Assembly: GCA_022072165.1 (NCBI GenBank)
Contig: JAJVIF010000002.1
Location: 240,221-304,220 of the forward strand
Length of the DNA: 64,000 nucleotides
Direction: 5' to 3'
DNA from: a bacterium
Lineage (GTDB): Bacteria > JAJVIF01
Shown here one piece after another: positions 1,707 through 13,625 of this stretch; position 1 is the first letter of the stretch, and each line of letters begins with the position of its first letter. Position numbers and translations under genes: made by a program. Under the pieces are notes generated by a model. The model was given only the letters and a program-made list of their open reading frames with translations. It made no database searches and was not told where the DNA came from.

Positions 1707-4133
1707 ATGAACTTCCCATGGAAATTCGGGGTGCCGTTGCTGATGTGGTGGGATAGCCTCGATGCCTATCCGGACGAAAGTTCCTCGGGCTATGGGAGAA
1801 ACCACAGTGTCTCCGGCTCTGCCCAAGCCAACTATCCCCCCGAACGTTTCTTTAATGCCGTCACCGCCCCGCAAGGCTCCCGCTGCACGGACATCGACTG
1901 TCCGCCCCTGCCAGGCCAACCGCAACAGTGGCAAGATGCCAGCCTCATCGACGCTATTGCGGAGACGGTGAACTGGTTCAACACCTATGTGCAGCCCTCA
2001 ACCACACTAAACGGTTGGGGCGTGCGCACTGGTGCCTGGGCGCAGATACCAGAACGGTCGCTACTGTGGTGCTATGTGCGCGGCATTCGGGAAACCAAAG
2101 GGTGTTTAAGATGGTGGGAGAAAAACTTGGGTGATCTTGCGGCAGAAATCTGGAGTCCGCTTGATGAGTTCCTGGATGGCATCCTTTCGGATGCCGATGT
2201 GCAAGACCGCATCGCAGGTTGGTTGCTCATCGACGAAGCCGAGGTCAGCAGCAGCCGACGACTTCCGCGCCCGATAGAAGTCCCCCAGATCCTGGGCATC
2301 AGCGGCCCCCTGGTGGAAGTGGGGACAAACATCGAACTGACGGCCTGGGCGACCGGTGATCCTTACGATTGGGAGTGGACCTTTTCCGGGCCGGTGGTGA
2401 TGTATTCTCAGACGGGCAACAAAGCCGTGATCAATGCCTTCGCCCCCGGCACGATTGTGGCCACCGTGGTGGAGCGCAATTGGTGGGGAGAATCGGTTGA
2501 GTATCACCAGACTTTTATAGCGGTCGCCAGCAGTGCTGTAACCGACCCAGAAGTCCGGCTGATGGCCACCAGCGGACCGGAAGGCCTGGTGCGCCACGCG
2601 TTGATCGATGACGGCAGTGGGACGCTTGTTGGGCAAGCCCTGATCCCTGAATTAGGTGAACTCATTCTCCGCCCCCTGATCCTGGGCTCTCCTCTGACCG
2701 GGGCTGGCGGAGCTACGTTGAAGGTTGAGTGGACAGATGTTTCTCTCGGAGATCCTAGCTCGCCAGAGTTTGAGTTAGCGATTCCACGAACGCTCCTTTC
2801 CACCGCCTCTCGTGTGACCGGTAACTTTCAGATCGAAGACCCCTCGAATCCCGGCAGCTTCCTGCCGCCGATACCCTTTGCGATCTTCCTGATCACACCT
2901 GATCCGGGGCAATGGTTGCCCCCCAACTGGGTCCACCCCCGCTTTCTGGAGGCCGCCGCGCATCGCGTCCAAAGCGTTGCCACGGCCTACGGTGTCGGCG
3001 GGCTCCCGTTCCTCTCCACCCACGCCGCCTGCATCGTTCCCGCACATTTCTACGGTGCAGAGGTGCCCAGGGTCGCAAATGTCGAAGAGACTAAGGAGAT
3101 CGATATCCCCGGCTGTAAGACATACGGGACCGAAGCGCCGCCCGCTCCCTCGGCATTCAGTTACCGAATGCAACCAGCAGCAAATGGCTCGGCGTTCCAG
3201 GACTGTCATGCACTGGATGACTACATCATTCAGGCGGGGGTCCCCACGTTGCGGTCCGAACTCGCCTGGCAGCAATCGCAGGGCATCATTCGGGATGCCG
3301 ACGAGTTTCTGGAGAACTCCGTCCCGATCTTCGACCCGCTCTGGGCCTATCGACGCCTGGAGCAGTTTCGGGCCGCCCTGAATCCCCCCGGAGTGGACGC
3401 TTTCCCGTTCCTGCTCACGCTCCAGGCGTACGGCCACCCCTACATCCGCGATGCCTCGGACGATCCATTTGAGCCGACGCGGATGGATGGCTGGAACCTG
3501 CAGAAGCCCACCAACATCACCGGGGACGGGGTAGATGCGGCCTACGCAGCGCGGTTCCTGTTCTGGTACGCCATCTTCAAAGGTACCGAGGGTGCGCTCT
3601 GGTTTGCGCAGCTCTTTGTCAACGATGCCTGGCTCGAAGAGGTCTACAACCTGATCGCGGCTGAACTGTTCGAGTACTTCGATCTGCGGTTCAACGGATT
3701 TCTCCTCAGCAACCAGGGCCCTTCGCAAGTCGTGTTTCCCGAAGGAGCAGTTCCCCGAGGCCGAAGCACCATGGGGTTCACGGTGGTGCCAGGAGTGCTG
3801 CAGGATCAGGTCATCACCCTGCCGGGCAATGCGGGCACGACCACCGGCCGGACTGAGCAGCCGCCCGTGGCGGCTATGATTGAGCGGAAAGACCTCTACG
3901 CTGGCACCCGCCCTGCGGGCCAACGGATCGTCTTTCTGCTGAACCCGAGTTATCGGGCACGGACTTTCCACCTCGATTTTCAGTCTGACTACGCGGGCAG
4001 CGTGCTGCGCGAGTGGCGGCTGGGAACTCACATCGGAGACATCAGCATCGTGACCACTGCGGGGGAGGACACGCCTGTGCGACTCCGCCCCTATGAAGTC
4101 CGAATCTTCGAAGTTGTGCCACCGTCGCCATAG
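1707..4133 (+). CDS. Large glycosidase-like protein with an inserted Ig/PKD-like domain
   Basis: I do not recognise an exact family. The 808-residue product starts with a beta-strand-like segment (PLLMWWDSLDAYPD) and contains GWLLIDEAEV near residue 180. A beta-rich Ig/PKD-like insertion follows (about 195-275). Later segments such as PFLLTLQAYGHPY and FLFWYAIFKG resemble late strands of a TIM barrel. The end, with IVFLLNPSYRARTF and RPYEVRIFEV, looks like the C-terminal beta-sandwich common in glycoside hydrolases. No signal peptide is visible from this start, so the true N-terminus may lie upstream: with 13 rather than 12 C at 1621-1632, a better ribosome site at 1601-1606 would feed this frame. 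The stop codon overlaps the ribosome site of the next lipoprotein gene, so the two are probably coupled. The hydrolase role is inferred; no catalytic pair is certain. Confidence 0.6.
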   Translation: MNFPWKFGVPLLMWWDSLDAYPDESSSGYGRNHSVSGSAQANYPPERFFNAVTAPQGSRCTDIDCPPLPGQPQQWQDASLIDAIAETVNWFNTYVQPSTTLNGWGVRTGAWAQIPERSLLWCYVRGIRETKGCLRWWEKNLGDLAAEIWSPLDEFLDGILSDADVQDRIAGWLLIDEAEVSSSRRLPRPIEVPQILGISGPLVEVGTNIELTAWATGDPYDWEWTFSGPVVMYSQTGNKAVINAFAPGTIVATVVERNWWGESVEYHQTFIAVASSAVTDPEVRLMATSGPEGLVRHALIDDGSGTLVGQALIPELGELILRPLILGSPLTGAGGATLKVEWTDVSLGDPSSPEFELAIPRTLLSTASRVTGNFQIEDPSNPGSFLPPIPFAIFLITPDPGQWLPPNWVHPRFLEAAAHRVQSVATAYGVGGLPFLSTHAACIVPAHFYGAEVPRVANVEETKEIDIPGCKTYGTEAPPAPSAFSYRMQPAANGSAFQDCHALDDYIIQAGVPTLRSELAWQQSQGIIRDADEFLENSVPIFDPLWAYRRLEQFRAALNPPGVDAFPFLLTLQAYGHPYIRDASDDPFEPTRMDGWNLQKPTNITGDGVDAAYAARFLFWYAIFKGTEGALWFAQLFVNDAWLEEVYNLIAAELFEYFDLRFNGFLLSNQGPSQVVFPEGAVPRGRSTMGFTVVPGVLQDQVITLPGNAGTTTGRTEQPPVAAMIERKDLYAGTRPAGQRIVFLLNPSYRARTFHLDFQSDYAGSVLREWRLGTHIGDISIVTTAGEDTPVRLRPYEVRIFEVVPPSP

Positions 4134-5703
4134 GAGGGCTGTTTCCATGCGTCCGTTTGCCTTACTCGCTGCTTGTGCCATCTTCTTACTGACCGGATGT
4201 CCTGGTGGCGGCACGACAGACCCGCCACCAGCGCGGCCCCGGGTGCTGAGCGTTTCCCCCGCAGGATTGGTGGGCAAAGCCGGCGCGACCGTGCAGTTTG
4301 CTGCGGCGGTCGAGGGGAGTGTCGAGAGCTATGCCTGGGAGTTCACCGGCGCTACCCCTGGCACGTCCAGCGCCGCCACGCCGGAAGTGCAGTTAACCGC
4401 TGATGGGGACTACACCGGATCTCTACAGGTTGCTGGCCCGACTGGCATCTCGGATGCCTTTTCGTTTACTTACTCCGTTGGGGAGACTGGGGCCCCAGTC
4501 TGGGAGCGCTTCCCGGTGCAGGCAGCGGGCATGGATGCCGCCACGAATGTGCGCGCAGGCCTCTTTGATAATCATCTAGTAGTAGTTTACAGTACGGCAC
4601 AACCATCTCTTCTACCAACCCTTGAAGTGTTCGTGGCTGTCAGTTCCTTGGCGCGTCCTGAGCATCCAGCAGACTGGACCAGTTACAAACTCAGCGCCGC
4701 CGCACACCTGGGTCTTAACACGAGCATGATTTCCCTGCATGGACGGCCTGCGCTGGAGTACCAGAACAGAGACTATAGTCCGGGGATCGATACCCGCCGC
4801 ATCCTGTGGGCAAACACCCCGAATCCGCAGAGTCCGGGCGATTGGCAAACTTTTCGGGTGTTTGATCCTGCTGATACTCCACAACAACCTAACATGTTAT
4901 GGTACAAATCCATCATCCCCCTTTCGAATGGGGGTTTGGGCGTCGCCGCCCATTCACTCACCACCAAGCGGGCCTACTGGATTTCCACCACCACCCTGCC
5001 CCCGACGTCCGATGCCGACTGGTCGTACATTGAACTCAGCTTGAACGTGAATGAAGATTACGCCATGGCGGAGCTCGATGGGGGCCTCAGTCTCGCCTAC
5101 GGAAGTTCAGGATTTTGGGGAGGTGTGTCATGGAGGCACGCGCCGACGCTGAGTCCGGCGTCTGCCGCGGAGTTCCAGATCGTCACCTCCAGCAATGGAA
5201 TATCCGGCAAGGAAAGCGAGGAAGTAATCCAGGGCTTCACGGTCCTGCCTGACCGGGCGCTGCTGATCACGACTTTTGGCACCTCTCGCTTTGCTCCCGG
5301 GCTGCACAGCGCCCGGCATCAGGTGATAGCGCGCTCGTTCCCCATCCTGCCCCCCGCCCCACCTACCATTTTTGACGCCTTCGTGACCGGCCCATCCGAA
5401 GAATACTGGGACCCAGGATTCTTTGAGCGCTCCATCCTGTGGGATGGGCGCCTCCTCGGCCATTTGTATCTGCGGGATGAGATCTTTCTCCTCCGGGCAC
5501 TCACTCCCACCCCAACGAGTGCAGAAGACTTCGAGTCGTACGGCCTGGTTGCAAACCTGCCGTATTTCATTGGTGGGGGCGTGCGTTCGCTGGCGATGAC
5601 CCCGCTCGCGGATGGCGGGGCGGCGGTACTGACCTGTGCCCGGCCCGACGATCCGCCGCAGCCGCTGGAGATCTGGTACCCCAGCGGCCCGTGGTAGCGC
5701 TGC
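4086..5703 (+). repeat. Direct duplication, copy 1 (1618 bp)
   Basis: This block holds the last 15 codons of the glycosidase-like gene plus the complete lipoprotein gene. It matches 11902-13519 in the same orientation. Similarity stops abruptly at CGCCC on the left and TAGCGCTGC on the right. No terminal inverted repeats or transposase are visible. Confidence 0.9.
4147..5697 (+). CDS. PKD-domain lipoprotein, copy 1 of a duplicated pair
   Basis: Predicted surface or periplasmic lipoprotein of 516 residues with unknown function. I chose ATG 4147 because it follows TAGGAGGG and opens a classic lipoprotein signal (MRPFALLAACAIFLLTGC, cysteine 18). An earlier in-frame ATG at 4093 lies inside the upstream gene. 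Residues 31-112 form a PKD/Ig-like domain with SYAWEFTG and a DGDYTGSLQV strand. The remaining 400 residues are beta-rich, with repeated tryptophan and aromatic blocks that could form a propeller or lectin-like fold. A near-identical gene lies at 11963-13513 at a constant offset of 7816 bases and with no net indel. The two proteins differ most at residues 141-160. Confidence 0.85.
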   Translation: MRPFALLAACAIFLLTGCPGGGTTDPPPARPRVLSVSPAGLVGKAGATVQFAAAVEGSVESYAWEFTGATPGTSSAATPEVQLTADGDYTGSLQVAGPTGISDAFSFTYSVGETGAPVWERFPVQAAGMDAATNVRAGLFDNHLVVVYSTAQPSLLPTLEVFVAVSSLARPEHPADWTSYKLSAAAHLGLNTSMISLHGRPALEYQNRDYSPGIDTRRILWANTPNPQSPGDWQTFRVFDPADTPQQPNMLWYKSIIPLSNGGLGVAAHSLTTKRAYWISTTTLPPTSDADWSYIELSLNVNEDYAMAELDGGLSLAYGSSGFWGGVSWRHAPTLSPASAAEFQIVTSSNGISGKESEEVIQGFTVLPDRALLITTFGTSRFAPGLHSARHQVIARSFPILPPAPPTIFDAFVTGPSEEYWDPGFFERSILWDGRLLGHLYLRDEIFLLRALTPTPTSAEDFESYGLVANLPYFIGGGVRSLAMTPLADGGAAVLTCARPDDPPQPLEIWYPSGPW

Positions 5704-5726: not shown

Positions 5727-7373
5727 TCAGTACGCCAGCACCGCTTCGGCATCCAGTGCCCGCTCGATAGGGACCTGCTCGGTGGCGAGGTCGAGGAAGA
5801 CCGGCTCTGGCAGGACTCCCCCCGCCGCATCGCGCAGGAGACTGACCTGCGGCTGGAAGGGGCGCCCGAAGGTGGCCTCCCGGACGACCGCCAGTTCCCG
5901 GCTTCGGAGCTGCACCAGAGTCCCGGGAGGGTACATGCCGAAGACCTGCAGGAACGCCCGGGTGATCTCCGGGGCTACCAGCTGCCCCCCGGACTGCACA
6001 ATCGCCTGGGCAGCCCGATGGAACGACCGCTTCACGCCGTGGACCGGGTCGGTGCAGAGGGTGTCGTAGGTGTTGGCGACAATCAACAGTTGGGTCGCCT
6101 GGCTCAGCTGCGCGCCCCGGAGTCCCCGGGCGAAGCCCCGGCCATCGACCCGTTCGTGATGATCGCGGACCATCTCCAGGAACCGCGTGTCGAAGCCCCC
6201 CTGCTCCAGCAGATACTCATACCCCCGCTGCGGGTGCCGTCGATAGGCCGCGGCAGTGGTGTCGCCCTCTTCCAGGGGGAGGATGCGTCCGATGTCGTGG
6301 AACAGCGCGCACTCGCCGGCCGCCGCCAGGTGATCGGCGGAGAGATTCAGGGCGCGTCCGAGGCTGACAAAGGTCACCAGGGTGTTGAAGCAGTGGGAGA
6401 AGACCTGGCTGGAGACCAGGAAGAGGTCGGCGAGGCTGCAGGTCTTCTGCGGGTCCGCCAGAATCTCGCCAATGATCTGGGCGCTGGTCTGACGCACCGG
6501 TGCGAGGTCGGTGACCCCCGCTTCCTTCAGCTCGGTGAGGCTCCGTTCCAGCTGGGTGTAGGCCCGGAGCTTGGTCGCCTGGCTGATGCTCGGCTCGGCC
6601 TGGGCGACAAAGAGGAGGTCGCGGTAGTCATTGGGGTGAAATTTGCGGGGCTGTCCCCGGGTCCCGAAGTAGAACCCTTCGGGGATTTCCACGGGAATGT
6701 CGGCCACCAGGTCATCGCCCGGCTGATCGAAGACGAAGGCGATGTCATGACCGGGGAGGTCGGCCACCACCGGATCGGCCGCTGGCACCGCTGGAGTCGC
6801 GCTGACCGCGTTGCCAGCTCCCTGATCCGCATCCTGGAGATAAAGGAATGGATGGCCGTCATTTTCCTGCACCGCCACTGGCGGGAGGTCCGGCAGGACC
6901 TCCTCAGCGGGGGCTGCCGCGACCGGAGTCGCGGCGGGGAGGGTGGCAGCCGCGAGCTCGTCGGGGGTCGGGGGGGTGCCGACAAAGACGAGGTCGATGC
7001 CCCGCGCCTGCAGGGCGTCGATGATGGTGGGGGAGATCAGGGTCCCTTCCATGAGGAGGAGAGCGCCGGTCCGGTCATAGACATCCGCGGTCAGGCGTTC
7101 CCCTGGTGGGAGGTCGGACACCCGCAGGCCGCGCCCGGTCGCGGCGACACCAAAAGGGGACTGGTCGGTGAGTCCCTGGAGGACCTGATCGCGGATGAGG
7201 GCATCCAGGAAGAGGAGGTCGGCGGCGAGGGCAATGCAATGGGGGCAGATCCGGATGTGGCGGAGGTATTGCTCGGCCAGCAGTCCGCGCAGCTCGCCAT
7301 CGGCCAGCTGCATCAAAATGCCATCCCGCTCGATGACCCGACAGAGGTCAGTCGGCGGAGGGGCAGCCGTCAT
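5727..7373 (-). CDS. Anti-sigma-type zinc finger fused to an HD-GYP domain
   Basis: The 548-residue protein probably senses or turns over cyclic di-GMP and controls the neighbouring sigma factor. Near the N-terminus it has H39-x3-C43-x2-C46 in a helical setting, the zinc-binding pattern of zf-HC2 anti-sigma factors. A long linker region follows. The HD-GYP half has HDIGR (residues 359-363), HHERVDGRGF near 405 and ANTYDTLCT. In canonical HD-GYP the third motif is HHERxDGxGYP, so GYP is replaced here by GFA. I chose ATG 7373, after AAGGTG; an upstream start at 7451 would add a poorly coding arginine-rich leader. The sigma factor gene ends 195 bp upstream on the same strand. Direct inhibition of that sigma factor is inferred from this arrangement. 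Confidence 0.8.
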   Translation of the reverse strand: MTAAPPPTDLCRVIERDGILMQLADGELRGLLAEQYLRHIRICPHCIALAADLLFLDALIRDQVLQGLTDQSPFGVAATGRGLRVSDLPPGERLTADVYDRTGALLLMEGTLISPTIIDALQARGIDLVFVGTPPTPDELAAATLPAATPVAAAPAEEVLPDLPPVAVQENDGHPFLYLQDADQGAGNAVSATPAVPAADPVVADLPGHDIAFVFDQPGDDLVADIPVEIPEGFYFGTRGQPRKFHPNDYRDLLFVAQAEPSISQATKLRAYTQLERSLTELKEAGVTDLAPVRQTSAQIIGEILADPQKTCSLADLFLVSSQVFSHCFNTLVTFVSLGRALNLSADHLAAAGECALFHDIGRILPLEEGDTTAAAYRRHPQRGYEYLLEQGGFDTRFLEMVRDHHERVDGRGFARGLRGAQLSQATQLLIVANTYDTLCTDPVHGVKRSFHRAAQAIVQSGGQLVAPEITRAFLQVFGMYPPGTLVQLRSRELAVVREATFGRPFQPQVSLLRDAAGGVLPEPVFLDLATEQVPIERALDAEAVLAY

Positions 7374-7568
7374 GGTGACCACACAGCACCTTCTTTCGGG
7401 GGTCGCGGCACGGTGTCGCGACTGGCTCTGTGCGGGTTTGCCCTCTCGCACAGGTTCCCACTAAGTGTGTACAAACTCCCGCGTCGCGACGCTCATTGGC
7501 AGCGTCGGGAGGAGCACCGGGCCTGACACCGGTGACCTCCTGGAGCCGGGGGGATCCGGTCGCCTTGC

Positions 7569-8261
7569 TCAGGCGGCCATCGCGACCCCGACCTGCATGA
7601 GTTCCCGGAGGGCCAGGAGCGCCTTTTGCAGTTGCGCCCCGACACTCCCTTCGGGGATGCCGAGTTCCTCGGCGATCTCCCGGTACTTGAGATTTTGGTG
7701 GTAGCGCAATTCGATCACCTGACGCAGGTCGGGTGCCAAACGCGCCATCGCGGCCCGGAGATGATCATGCTCCACCTGTTCGAAGGCCAGGGTTTCGGGC
7801 TGCTGGGCGGACTCATCCGGGAGGTCGTACTCGATTTCGTCCAGGGAGCACTTCTCGACCTCGCCCCCCCGCTTGATGGTCTGGACCCGGCGGAAATGCT
7901 GCCGCACCCGGTTAATGGTGAGGGTGTGGATGAATGTTTTCAGGAGCGATTTGCGCTGGAAGGTCGAGAGGCCCTTGACGAGGTCCTCGAAGACCTCGTG
8001 GCAGATATCCTCCGCATCCTCATCGGGCATCCCGGAGTTCCGGCCCTTCACCAGCTGATAGATGTACGAATAGAACCGCTCATAGACCAAAGTCCAGGCA
8101 TCATGGTCGCCGGCATTGCAGCGCTCGATCAGTTCAGCTTCCGAGAGTCCGCCAAAGCGGGAGCCCACGGTGCTGCGCTGCAGGCCGCTGGGCTGCCGAT
8201 CCGTGGCGGTCTCCAGCGAGGGGGTCGCTGCCGGGTGCCAGCGAAGGGCTGGTTCGCTCAT
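7569..8261 (-). CDS. ECF-type RNA polymerase sigma factor
   Basis: A 230-residue sigma-70 family protein with only regions 2 and 4, so it directs RNA polymerase to alternative promoters. Region 2 includes ERFYSYIYQLVKG, DAEDICHEVFEDL and the aromatic-poor LKTFIHTLTINRVRQHFRR. Region 4 includes LAPDLRQVIELRYHQNLKYREIAEELGIPEGSVGAQL, a typical helix-turn-helix. The N-terminal 35 residues look disordered. ATG 8261 is preferred over a GTG two codons earlier. It heads a minus-strand pair with the zinc-finger/HD-GYP gene. In the 98-bp upstream gap, GAAACC followed 17 bases later by TAGGTA could be an autoregulated ECF promoter, but this is weak. Confidence 0.9.
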   Translation of the reverse strand: MSEPALRWHPAATPSLETATDRQPSGLQRSTVGSRFGGLSEAELIERCNAGDHDAWTLVYERFYSYIYQLVKGRNSGMPDEDAEDICHEVFEDLVKGLSTFQRKSLLKTFIHTLTINRVRQHFRRVQTIKRGGEVEKCSLDEIEYDLPDESAQQPETLAFEQVEHDHLRAAMARLAPDLRQVIELRYHQNLKYREIAEELGIPEGSVGAQLQKALLALRELMQVGVAMAA

Positions 8262-8359: not shown

Positions 8360-10117
8360 CTATTTATTGTTTGCTGATGGGTGCGCCGGGGACTCTGCTG
8401 AAGTGGGGCGGCGCTGGAGGGGATCGATGAGTTCCAGGACCACATAGTCGCCGGTGTCGTGGGTGTCGCGGACCGCCAGTGACCCCAGGTGGAGCCAGAG
8501 TTCCGCCGGCTCCCGACGTCCAGACTGCAGCTCGCTGAGGCGGAGGATCGGTTGCGCCGCCGAGAAGGGAGGCTGACCGCTGGCAGGACGTCCCTGGCTC
8601 ACCAGCAGCCGGGGTCCGAGGTCGGGGAGTCGGGCATGACCTGCGCGCAGTCGCTCCGCCAGGGGGATGGTGCCGAACCGGGAGCGGGCGTACTCGGCCT
8701 CTGTGAACTGCTGCAGCTTGTAGATCGGACGCTCTGGCAGCAGCAGGCGGGCAAAGTGCATCTCCTCGAACGCATCGGGCATTGTCGCGAAGAGGAGCGG
8801 TCCCTCCGGGAGCCGGGTCAGGCTCAGGATCGTGGCCAGGGTCGGGTTGCAGGTGGCCTGCATCCGGGGGAGATAGCCATAGGCCGCGTTCAGACTCGCG
8901 AGGAATATCAGCAGACTGATAGTGAAGCTGAGGCCGATGGTGTGCCAGCCCGGTCCGGGGAGTCGGCTCACAGGGAGCAGCAGCAATGGCAGGGCCAGGG
9001 GCCAGTAGTAGAGACGATAAAAGGGCTGCTGCGGCTCAAAGACGGTACAAAACAGCAGCAGCGGGAGAGTCCAGGCGACCACCAGACGGAGTATCTGACG
9101 CGCACGCTCGTCGCCTGCGTTCCAGCGCATCACCCCCCCGATGAGCGTGAGGAACGCCAGGGTCGGGACCAGCCAACACCAGAGCCCCCAGAGTCGCGGC
9201 GCGGGCCAGGCCGCCTGGATCGACTGCGCGACCACCGACCCCGTGATCGGATCGAAGCGCTCGCCGATGGGCGAGGCCATGATGAGGCGTCCGTGCCCCT
9301 CTACGACTCCCTGCCAGATGACTTGTGCCAGCGACTGCTCCGGAGTCGACCGATGCCAGACCCAGTGATGCGCCTGCTGGCCATAGCGGAACAGCCAACG
9401 TCCGAGGGCCTCCATCGTGAAAGTCCCCTGCCCCTGAAACGCGATGGCGAAGCCGAGGGCATAGGCAACCACCAGCGGCAGCAGGGTGCCCAGCAGGGCG
9501 ACGCGCAACAGAGGCGAGGGCGCAACCCCCTGAACGCGGGCGCGGACGGTGCACCACCAGGCGAGCGGCAGGGCAAAGAGAATCGCGAGTTCATGCAGCA
9601 GCGTCGCGACCACCAGGAGCGCGACGCCTTGTCCGACACTGACGCGGGTCGGGGGGGTCTCGCTCCAGCGGAGGACCACCAGCAGCAGCGCCAGGAGGAG
9701 CGCGAGGGTCGGGAGGTAGACCGCGGCGTTGGTGCCATAGGACCAGGTGGCGAACGAGAGTCCGAGCGCAAGCTGGCAGAGGGTTGCCCAGAGCGGGGGG
9801 AGTCCGAGGTGCCGGGCGAGCGTCCAGGATTGCCAGCTCACGACCAGCGTCGCGACCCGGCTTAAGGACGCCATGATCCCCAGCGGATGCACCGCCAGTC
9901 CCAGCATCCCCAGCAGCTGCCAGCAGCTCCAGATGAGCGCGTTGTAGCCGAGGTGATGCGGATGGAGTCGTTGTTGCCATTCGCCATAGAGCACATAGGA
10001 GGCGTTCATCACGCCATCGTGGTAGTAGGCGTAGTTCGGCAGCAGCCAGAGCGGACCCAGGAGGAGGACGCCAGTCCAGGGGGAGGACCACCAGGGATGG
10101 GTGCGGACCTCGGTCAC
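8360..10117 (-). CDS. Polytopic membrane protein, glycosyltransferase (GT-C)-like
   Basis: A 585-residue protein with about ten strongly hydrophobic segments over residues 12-420 and a soluble C-terminal part of about 150 residues. The overall layout resembles GT-C membrane glycosyltransferases, which use lipid-linked sugars. That layout consists of an N-terminal membrane segment, a first outer loop containing YYHDGVMNASYVLYGEWQQ, many membrane spans and then a soluble tail. No signature motif is certain, so the activity is only a suggestion. The start is GTG 10117 without an obvious ribosome site. It lies 98 bp ahead of the sigma factor gene on the same strand and may be cotranscribed with it. 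Confidence 0.7.
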   Translation of the reverse strand: MTEVRTHPWWSSPWTGVLLLGPLWLLPNYAYYHDGVMNASYVLYGEWQQRLHPHHLGYNALIWSCWQLLGMLGLAVHPLGIMASLSRVATLVVSWQSWTLARHLGLPPLWATLCQLALGLSFATWSYGTNAAVYLPTLALLLALLLVVLRWSETPPTRVSVGQGVALLVVATLLHELAILFALPLAWWCTVRARVQGVAPSPLLRVALLGTLLPLVVAYALGFAIAFQGQGTFTMEALGRWLFRYGQQAHHWVWHRSTPEQSLAQVIWQGVVEGHGRLIMASPIGERFDPITGSVVAQSIQAAWPAPRLWGLWCWLVPTLAFLTLIGGVMRWNAGDERARQILRLVVAWTLPLLLFCTVFEPQQPFYRLYYWPLALPLLLLPVSRLPGPGWHTIGLSFTISLLIFLASLNAAYGYLPRMQATCNPTLATILSLTRLPEGPLLFATMPDAFEEMHFARLLLPERPIYKLQQFTEAEYARSRFGTIPLAERLRAGHARLPDLGPRLLVSQGRPASGQPPFSAAQPILRLSELQSGRREPAELWLHLGSLAVRDTHDTGDYVVLELIDPLQRRPTSAESPAHPSANNK

Positions 10118-11901: not shown

Positions 11902-11949
11902 CGCCCTTACGAAGTCCGGATCTTCGAAGTTGTGCCACCGTCGCCATAG
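11902..11949 (+). pseudogene. Scar: last 15 codons of the glycosidase-like gene
   Basis: These bases encode the same C-terminal residues (RPYEVRIFEVVPPSP and stop) as the end of the gene at 1707-4133. They are here without the rest of that gene. They were carried along when the adjacent lipoprotein gene was duplicated, which marks the 4147 copy as the likely original. Confidence 0.85.
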
Positions 11950-11962
11950 GAGGGCTGTGTTG

Positions 11963-13513
11963 ATGCGTCCGCTTGCCTTACTCGCTGCTTGTGCCATCTT
12001 CTTACTGACCGGATGTCCTGGTGGCGGCACGACAGACCCGCCGCCAGCGCGGCCCCGGGTGCTGAGCGTTTCCCCCGCAGGAATGGTGGGCAAAGTCGGC
12101 GCGACCGTGCAGTTTGCCGCAGCGGTCGAGGGGAGTGTCGAGAGCTATGCCTGGGAGTTCACCGGCGCTACCCCTGGCACATCCAGCGCCGCCACGCCGG
12201 AAGTGCAGTTAACCGCTGATGGGGACTACACCGGATCCCTGCAGGTTGCTGGCCCGACTGGCATCTCGGATGCGTTTACATTTACTTACTCCGTTGGGGA
12301 GACTGGGGCACCAGTCTGGGAGCGCTTCCCGGTGCAGGCAGCGGGCATGGATGCCGCCACGCAGGTGCGTGCAGGCCTCTTCGATGGCAATTTAGTTATT
12401 ATTTACAGCACTTGGAAACCATTTCCTCCAACGTCCTCCGAAACGTTCGTGGCTGTCAGTTCCCTGGCGCGCCCTGAGCATCCGGCAGAGTGGACCAGTT
12501 ACAAACTAAGCGCCACTGCAATCTTGGGTCCGAACATCAGCATGATTTCCCTGCATGGACGGCCTGCGCTGGAGTACCAGAACAGAGACTATAGTGAAGG
12601 GATCGATACCCGCCGCATCCTGTGGGCAAACACCCCGAATCCGCAGAGTCCGGGCGATTGGCAAACTTTTCAGGTGTTTAATCCTGCTGAGACTCCACAA
12701 CAACCTACCACGTTGTGGTACAAATCCATCATCCCCCTTTCGAATGGGGGTTTGGGCGTCGCCGCCCATTCACTCACCACCAAGCGGGCCTACTGGATTT
12801 CCACCACCACCCTGCCCCCGACGTCCGATGCCGACTGGTCGTACATTGAACTCAGCTTGAACGTGAATGAAGATTACGCCATGGCGGAGCTCGATGGGGG
12901 CCTCAGTCTCGCCTCCGGAAGTTCAGGATTTTGGGGAGGTGTGTCATGGAGGCACGCGCCGACGCTGAGTCCGGCGTCTGCCGCGGAGTTCCAGATCGTC
13001 ACCTCCAGCAATGGAATACCCGGCAAGGAAAGCGAAGAGTTTATCCAGAGCTTCAAGGTCCTGCCCGACCGGGCGCTGCTGATCACGACCTTTGGTACCT
13101 CTCTCTTTGCTCCCGGGCTGCACAGCGCCAGGCACCAGGTGATTACGCGCTCGTTCCCCATCCTGCCCCCCGTCCCATCGGCCATTTTTGACGCCTTCGT
13201 GACCGGCCCATCCGAAGAAAACTGGGACCCAGGATTCTTTGAGCGCTCTATCCTGTGGGATGGCCGCCTCCTCGGCCATTTGTATCTGCGGGATGAGATC
13301 TTTCTCCTCCGGGCGCTCACTCCCACCCCAACGAGTGCAGAAGACTTCGAGTCGTACGGCCTGGTTACAAACCTGCCGTATTTCTACGGAGGGGTCGTGC
13401 AGTCGCTGGCGATGACCCCGCTCGCAGATGGCGGGGCGGCGGTACTGACCTGTGCCCGGCCCGACGATCCGCCGCAGCCGCTGGAGATCTGGTACCCCAG
13501 CGGCCCGTGGTAG
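11963..13513 (+). CDS. PKD-domain lipoprotein, copy 2 of a duplicated pair
   Basis: Paralogue of the lipoprotein at 4147 and identical in length (516 residues). It has the same lipoprotein signal (MRPLALLAACAIFLLTGC), PKD-like domain and beta-rich C-terminal part. The ribosome site TAGGAGGG (11947-11954) is retained from the duplication. Most residues match copy 1. Exceptions cluster at residues 141-160, where copy 1 has DNHLVVVYSTAQPSLL and this copy has DGNLVIIYSTWKPFPP. Unlike copy 1, it is followed by a good terminator at 13626. Expression now depends on whatever promoter lies in 11828-11960, or on read-through from the SDR gene. Confidence 0.85.
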   Translation: MRPLALLAACAIFLLTGCPGGGTTDPPPARPRVLSVSPAGMVGKVGATVQFAAAVEGSVESYAWEFTGATPGTSSAATPEVQLTADGDYTGSLQVAGPTGISDAFTFTYSVGETGAPVWERFPVQAAGMDAATQVRAGLFDGNLVIIYSTWKPFPPTSSETFVAVSSLARPEHPAEWTSYKLSATAILGPNISMISLHGRPALEYQNRDYSEGIDTRRILWANTPNPQSPGDWQTFQVFNPAETPQQPTTLWYKSIIPLSNGGLGVAAHSLTTKRAYWISTTTLPPTSDADWSYIELSLNVNEDYAMAELDGGLSLASGSSGFWGGVSWRHAPTLSPASAAEFQIVTSSNGIPGKESEEFIQSFKVLPDRALLITTFGTSLFAPGLHSARHQVITRSFPILPPVPSAIFDAFVTGPSEENWDPGFFERSILWDGRLLGHLYLRDEIFLLRALTPTPTSAEDFESYGLVTNLPYFYGGVVQSLAMTPLADGGAAVLTCARPDDPPQPLEIWYPSGPW

Positions 13514-13625
13514 CGCTGCATCTGCTAGACTGTATTTTAGTATGTCCCGAAGTCAGGCTACCGCAGTCGTCGATGTCGCTGGCCCGTAAGGGGCGGGTGC
13601 GTCACCGACTGCCGGTCGCGCTACA

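Follow-up and report, generated by a model that had tools for sequence, protein, structure and literature searches.

Among described systems, ChrR, the anti-sigma factor of RpoE (ECF11) in Rhodobacter sphaeroides, is among those closest to the protein that is analysed here, as both are soluble, start with a zinc anti-sigma domain, end in a domain that is the candidate sensor, and are encoded together with an ECF sigma factor of their own (PMC8999054). The C-terminal domain of ChrR is cupin-like, whereas the present protein has an HD-GYP domain, to which a further small domain and a beta extension are added. A helical class I zinc anti-sigma domain with an Hx3Cx2C motif is shared also with RsiW of Bacillus subtilis, the best PDB profile match, albeit a weak one. 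RsiW is membrane-anchored and freed by proteolysis, and the fusion by contrast is soluble.

That c-di-GMP can gate a sigma/anti-sigma pair is known from RsiG-WhiG of Streptomyces and other actinobacteria (PMC8325347). If the mechanism proposed below is right, the present pair would likewise be read out by c-di-GMP. WhiG does not count as an ECF sigma factor, RsiG is small and forms a coiled coil, no zinc or HD-GYP domain is known from either of the two, and zf-HC2 and HD are families different from that of RsiG. The Streptomyces venezuelae phosphodiesterase RmdB resembles the fusion in being a member of a c-di-GMP enzyme family that acts directly on sigma/anti-sigma binding, but it is a GGDEF-EAL protein without HD-GYP that binds the sigma factor WhiG and antagonises the anti-sigma factor, and it is no anti-sigma factor itself (PMC13232838). 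A degenerate, non-hydrolysing HD-GYP domain serves as c-di-GMP receptor in DvhD of Desulfovibrio vulgaris, and binding without hydrolysis, with signalling via changes of the dimer, is also what is proposed here for the fusion (PMC13090378). DvhD, however, sits in the membrane, includes PAS and periplasmic domains and has lost the HD and HH motifs, whereas the fusion has kept both and has Asn in place of the metal ligand known as D305 in PmGH.

The earlier note on this DNA had found no described layout to match the fusion, which is right insofar as full-text searches of the open-licence literature yielded no description of an anti-sigma factor fused to HD-GYP. Each part is nevertheless already known, and ChrR has the same plan of a soluble zinc anti-sigma factor with a C-terminal sensor (PMC8999054). 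As far as open-licence papers show, it is the HD-GYP domain as the type of sensor that is new for such a layout.

The gene pair and its surroundings

The window, a stretch of 64,000 nucleotides from contig JAJVIF010000002.1, contains an ECF sigma factor gene that is followed by the fusion gene (Table 1). The sigma gene product matches Sigma70_r4_2 (3e-14), Sigma70_ECF (1.5e-12) and TIGR02937 (6e-27), and of the regions of the sigma70 superfamily it has sigma2 and sigma4 only, as is the rule for ECF sigma factors. Domain matches and orthologues thus bear out what had been read from the DNA before, namely an ECF sigma gene followed by a gene whose product starts with an H-x3-C-x2-C motif of the zf-HC2 type and ends in HD-GYP.

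Table 1. Features of the sigma/fusion locus; positions are those of the window, residues those of the fusion protein
Feature	Positions	Strand	Residues or size	Basis or remark
ECF sigma factor gene, sigma2 and sigma4 regions	7569..8261	(-)	230 aa	Pfam/NCBIfam and orthologues
Intergenic gap between sigma and fusion genes	7374..7568	(-)	195 bases	
Zinc anti-sigma/HD-GYP fusion gene	5727..7373	(-)	548 aa from ATG 7373	architecture conserved in four genomes
Anti-sigma zinc domain	7170..7346	(-)	10-68	C11, H39, C43, C46
Small domain	6966..7139	(-)	79-136	common to N-termini of many HD-GYP proteins
Low-confidence linker, probably disordered	6594..6941	(-)	145-260	pLDDT below 50
Helical lead-in and HD-GYP domain	5934..6593	(-)	261-480	HD_5/HD, fold match, site comparison
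C-terminal beta extension, 'YPPGTLVQLRS...'	5739..5933	(-)	481-545	AF2 strands

As the gene 5' of the sigma gene (8360-10117) shares its strand, whereas the one 3' of the fusion (4093-5697) is convergent, sigma and fusion genes form a two-gene unit with the gap between them, in which neither a sigma-70-type promoter nor an intrinsic terminator was detected. The longest reading frame of the fusion gene begins at GTG 7451. Translation may in fact begin at another codon, GTG 7382, which AGAAGG precedes at a distance of six bases; this start would add three residues and leave the rest unaltered. Autoregulation by the ECF sigma factor was considered and dropped, as the pattern GAAC-N-GT[CT] is matched once, inside the upstream gene, and has zero matches in the relatives.

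The region with the pair is bracketed by two direct copies of a putative lipoprotein gene of 534-557 aa (4086-5703 and 11902-13519, 93.5% identity across 1618 bases), and recombination between these copies could delete or amplify the region.

The zinc domain as a probable anti-sigma domain

In class I anti-sigma domains, helix 4 blocks sigma2 and helix 1 blocks sigma4 (PMC7406223). The class is marked by a bundle of three helices with helix 4 added to it, and by a zinc signature that runs across helices 2-3. The AF2 models of the fusion N-terminus have four helices (residues 10-16, 19-24, 30-42 and 44-68), and this part carries the Hx3Cx2C zinc signature of the class (ASDI/ZAS), with H39, C43, C46 and, in addition, C11, which is likely the fourth zinc ligand. 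All four residues are invariant in the four fusions, although the orthologues share no more than 32-42% identity with the window protein, so that the retention of H39, C43 and C46, which the earlier note had made a test of its reading, is confirmed. In the shuffled window protein, HxxxCxxC occurs within the first 100 residues at a frequency of 0.0004. The zf-HC2 match of the window protein is below the Pfam cut-off (14.9 against 22.2 bits), as is that of one orthologue, whereas the other two orthologues are above it (30.2 and 30.0 bits), and it is on these orthologue scores and the invariant residues that the zinc domain can be taken as real despite the weak match in the window protein. When the zinc-domain profile was compared with the PDB up to E = 10, two proteins only were matched, both weakly and both anti-sigma factors, RsiW (E 0.034) and DdvA (E 0.22). 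RsiW and RslA are also within the top four fold matches of the predicted structure of the isolated domain, and with E-values near 5, which are not significant, this structural likeness is consistent with the assignment but no proof of it.

One could also think of the N-terminal module as a zinc-stabilised domain that recruits some other partner, with the sigma gene as a mere neighbour, and the sub-threshold Pfam score and the non-significant structural match of the window protein would agree with this, as would the gaps of 195-383 bases in three genomes and the terminator-like site after the sigma gene in one of them (see below). It is a very improbable explanation, however, as orthologues exceed the zf-HC2 cut-off, the sole PDB profile matches are anti-sigma factors of ECF sigma factors, and the pairing and gene order are kept in all four genomes across different neighbourhoods. 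Judged by homology and gene order, the fusion is very probably the anti-sigma factor of the adjacent sigma factor.

If the fusion is an anti-sigma factor, the zinc site itself could be what senses, by a redox or zinc switch as in ChrR and RsrA, and the HD-GYP domain would then be a dimerisation scaffold or a sensor of metal or oxygen that works without a cyclic dinucleotide. Such a switch would suit the conservation of the full C/H/C/C set and the over-representation, in soluble class I anti-sigma factors, of zinc motifs, which often go with redox sensing (PMC7406223; PMC8999054), but the zinc may have a structural role only, which is its role in RsiW (PMC7406223), and the His/Asp metal core of HD-GYP is kept across proteins as divergent as these, which points to selection on the metal or ligand pocket. 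A redox or zinc switch is thus regarded as unlikely.

The window genome (G000) also encodes a short stand-alone zinc anti-sigma-like protein without HD-GYP (G000:C1:559201-559341; L089 2636-2941, minus strand), which resembles the fusion N-terminus (31 bits, 4.8e-7) and adjoins Omp85-like genes; it could vie for the sigma partner of the fusion.

Solubility and the accessory modules

Hydropathy gives no membrane span in any of the four fusions, the highest mean over 19 residues being at most 1.88 and lying within predicted domain segments. The solubility claimed in the earlier note is supported by this, but the contrast it had drawn with membrane-anchored anti-sigma factors was overstated, since ChrR is soluble as well (PMC8999054). 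The profile of the small domain (A3) matches proteins of many genomes, at positions ~76-136, and the beta extension is common to one subgroup of HD-GYP proteins, with a YPxG motif in most of the HD-GYP proteins used for comparison. The linker is ~100 residues shorter in two orthologues, as judged from the alignment of the four fusions, and with such variation a rigid stalk is less likely to couple the two ends than dimerisation or a direct docking of one on the other.

A distant resemblance of the small domain (6966-7139) to a segment of the RNA polymerase beta' subunit was also noticed, in weak PDB matches and in profile matches within frames of ~1400 aa. A Pfam match to the LysR substrate domain (residues 114-181) was discarded, as it has 23.4 bits at a cut-off of 28 and lies half inside the disordered linker.

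The HD-GYP domain: receptor or enzyme

In the window fusion, HD_5 (42.5 bits) and HD (34.7 bits) are both above their cut-offs, and the HD-GYP fold, which is modelled at high confidence, resembles those of Bd1817, PA4781, PmGH and DvhD with bound c-di-GMP. Fold and signature (HD, HHExxDGxGYP) are thus those of an HD-GYP domain, with the loop at the GYP position reading HHERVDGRGFAR in the window protein (GFAR) and GYPR or GFPR in the orthologues. Retained in the window protein are H327, H359-D360, H380, H405-H406, D410 and D437. Six of the eight protein metal ligands of PmGH are kept, and so is D308. The metal ligand D305 of PmGH is replaced by N434 (6072-6074), and Asn stands here in all four fusions, as opposed to Asp in 44 of 45 comparison HD-GYP proteins (counts that leave out comparison sequences L012 and L013). 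In place of E185, the four fusions have Gln, Lys, Gly and Gly, in place of K225 three of them have Arg (R363 in the window protein), and in place of D183 two have Ser or Asn. The fusions hence lack some of the metal-binding and catalytic residues that an active HD-GYP phosphodiesterase would have in full. In PmGH, K225A and D183A abolish activity, whereas D305A and E185A only reduce it (PMC4159591). As D305A PmGH is still partly hydrolytic (PMC4159591), the exchange of Asp for Asn is no proof of inactivity, and the Asn may still coordinate metal. In the alignment, the nucleotide contacts R314 and K317 of PmGH are not retained at the same places, and together with the GFAR loop of the window protein this makes c-di-GMP binding itself uncertain. 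A metal pocket that appears to be under selection, in a domain whose catalytic fitness is doubtful, would suit a receptor or an enzyme of low activity.

A second HD-GYP-like protein of the window genome, L002 (G000:C1:588138-588569), has lost the HD histidine (RD) and kept HHE, and is another candidate for a non-catalytic HD-GYP.

The genomes of the class can probably make c-di-GMP, with few GGDEF proteins as the synthases: there is one complete GGDEF domain in the window genome (GGEEY, with RxxD five residues before) and one or two in each relative, plus one partial match per relative. No EAL domain was found in the four class genomes, and PilZ occurs once each in the window genome and in one relative (G002) and is absent from the other two (G001, G003), single absences being soft at a completeness of 82-99%. 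The sole PilZ domain of the window genome (G000:C1:422892-423858, minus strand) is encoded close to another HD-GYP-like gene of the same orientation, at a distance of a few hundred bases.

As any breakdown of c-di-GMP would fall to HD-GYP proteins in genomes without EAL, the fusion could be a trigger enzyme, a working c-di-GMP phosphodiesterase whose activity or substrate occupancy is coupled to sigma binding, such that sigma release follows the breakdown or, conversely, sigma binding switches hydrolysis on or off. The retained metal ligands and D308, the GYP(R) loop that is kept in two orthologues, and the residual activity of D305A PmGH (PMC4159591) all speak for this. The same genomes, however, encode further HD-GYP proteins, D305 is Asn in every fusion and E185 is absent, and at the positions of K225 and D183, each of which PmGH needs for any activity, most or half of the fusions deviate. 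A trigger enzyme is thus regarded as unlikely, and a receptor rather than an efficient enzyme has a slight advantage as the reading of the residues at the active site. The earlier idea that sigma release is tied to c-di-GMP levels or breakdown stays plausible in this respect, but the clade-specific exchange at a metal ligand and the other erosion favour sensing over breakdown.

Conservation and distribution of the pair

The class sample comprises four genomes, two of which belong to the same family, namely the window genome and three same-class relatives, JAPKYR01 'bacterium' (G001), JAGGVT01 'bacterium' (G002) and DAOVJF01 'Planctomycetota bacterium' (G003). In all of them the orthologous sigma gene is directly followed by the fusion gene, with both in the same orientation, and the co-occurrence on which the earlier interpretation depended was thereby found in all three other genomes. 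The pair is flanked by frr, uppS and pyrH-like genes in G001 and G003, by an HtrA-like gene and ilvE-like genes in G002, and by yet other genes in the window; with surroundings shared by two genomes and differing in the other two, the pair has been kept while its surroundings changed. The gap between the two genes is 32, 195, 345 or 383 bases (195 in the window). A terminator-like site follows the sigma gene in G001, and a promoter-like site (TTGAAA-18-TATAGT) precedes the fusion gene in G001 and G003 each, but chance alone would give 3-5 sites of this kind per region, and separate transcription of the two genes is therefore a mere possibility.

Among about 790 genomes sampled, full-length matches to the N-terminal profile were confined to the four class genomes: there were no others among 385 genomes of many lineages, and none among 8 genomes of a further phylum and 399 of another, where the small middle domain or nothing was matched. 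These are sampled genomes and no census, and lineages outside the sample may have such fusions as well. Long zinc-domain frames from other phyla were dismissed as candidates, as none has the HD-GYP signature and most resemble ordinary anti-sigma-type proteins. In a collection of 84,980 species, the sigma profile found the orthologues of the three same-class genomes at 50-55% identity and all others at 32% or less, and tblastn confirmation left no match of the window fusion protein to the contigs of that collection.

A proposed mechanism

It is about an even bet that, as a whole, a soluble class I zinc anti-sigma factor holds the adjacent ECF sigma factor under the control of its own C-terminal HD-GYP domain. 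By homology and conserved pairing, the N-terminal helical zinc domain would bind sigma2 and sigma4 and thereby block RNA polymerase. The HD-GYP domain, probably dimeric, would bind a cyclic dinucleotide, most likely c-di-GMP from the few GGDEF proteins, and a role as ligand-gated input of the anti-sigma factor is rather probable. Binding of the ligand would affect dimerisation, or the way in which the tethered anti-sigma domains are packed, and would thereby either tighten or release the hold on the sigma factor. Given the exchange at the D305 position and the other erosion of the active site, hydrolysis is probably weak or lost, and the domain would mainly be a receptor. The most specific form of the proposal is put forward tentatively: the zinc anti-sigma factor would itself contain the receptor for a cyclic dinucleotide (c-di-GMP or another), the second messenger would thus act on the ECF sigma factor directly through one protein, and an HD-GYP enzyme would have turned into a sensor.

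Implications

The pair belongs to a little-studied class of bacteria, and with two genes, soluble proteins and defined ligands it is easy to test. If the proposal is true, ECF sigma factors, for which the open-licence papers gave no case of direct control by a cyclic dinucleotide, would have a second-messenger input, and the HD-GYP family a further case of an enzyme domain turned receptor. The pair would then also be an independent counterpart of RsiG-WhiG, with an unrelated protein fold and in an unrelated bacterial lineage.
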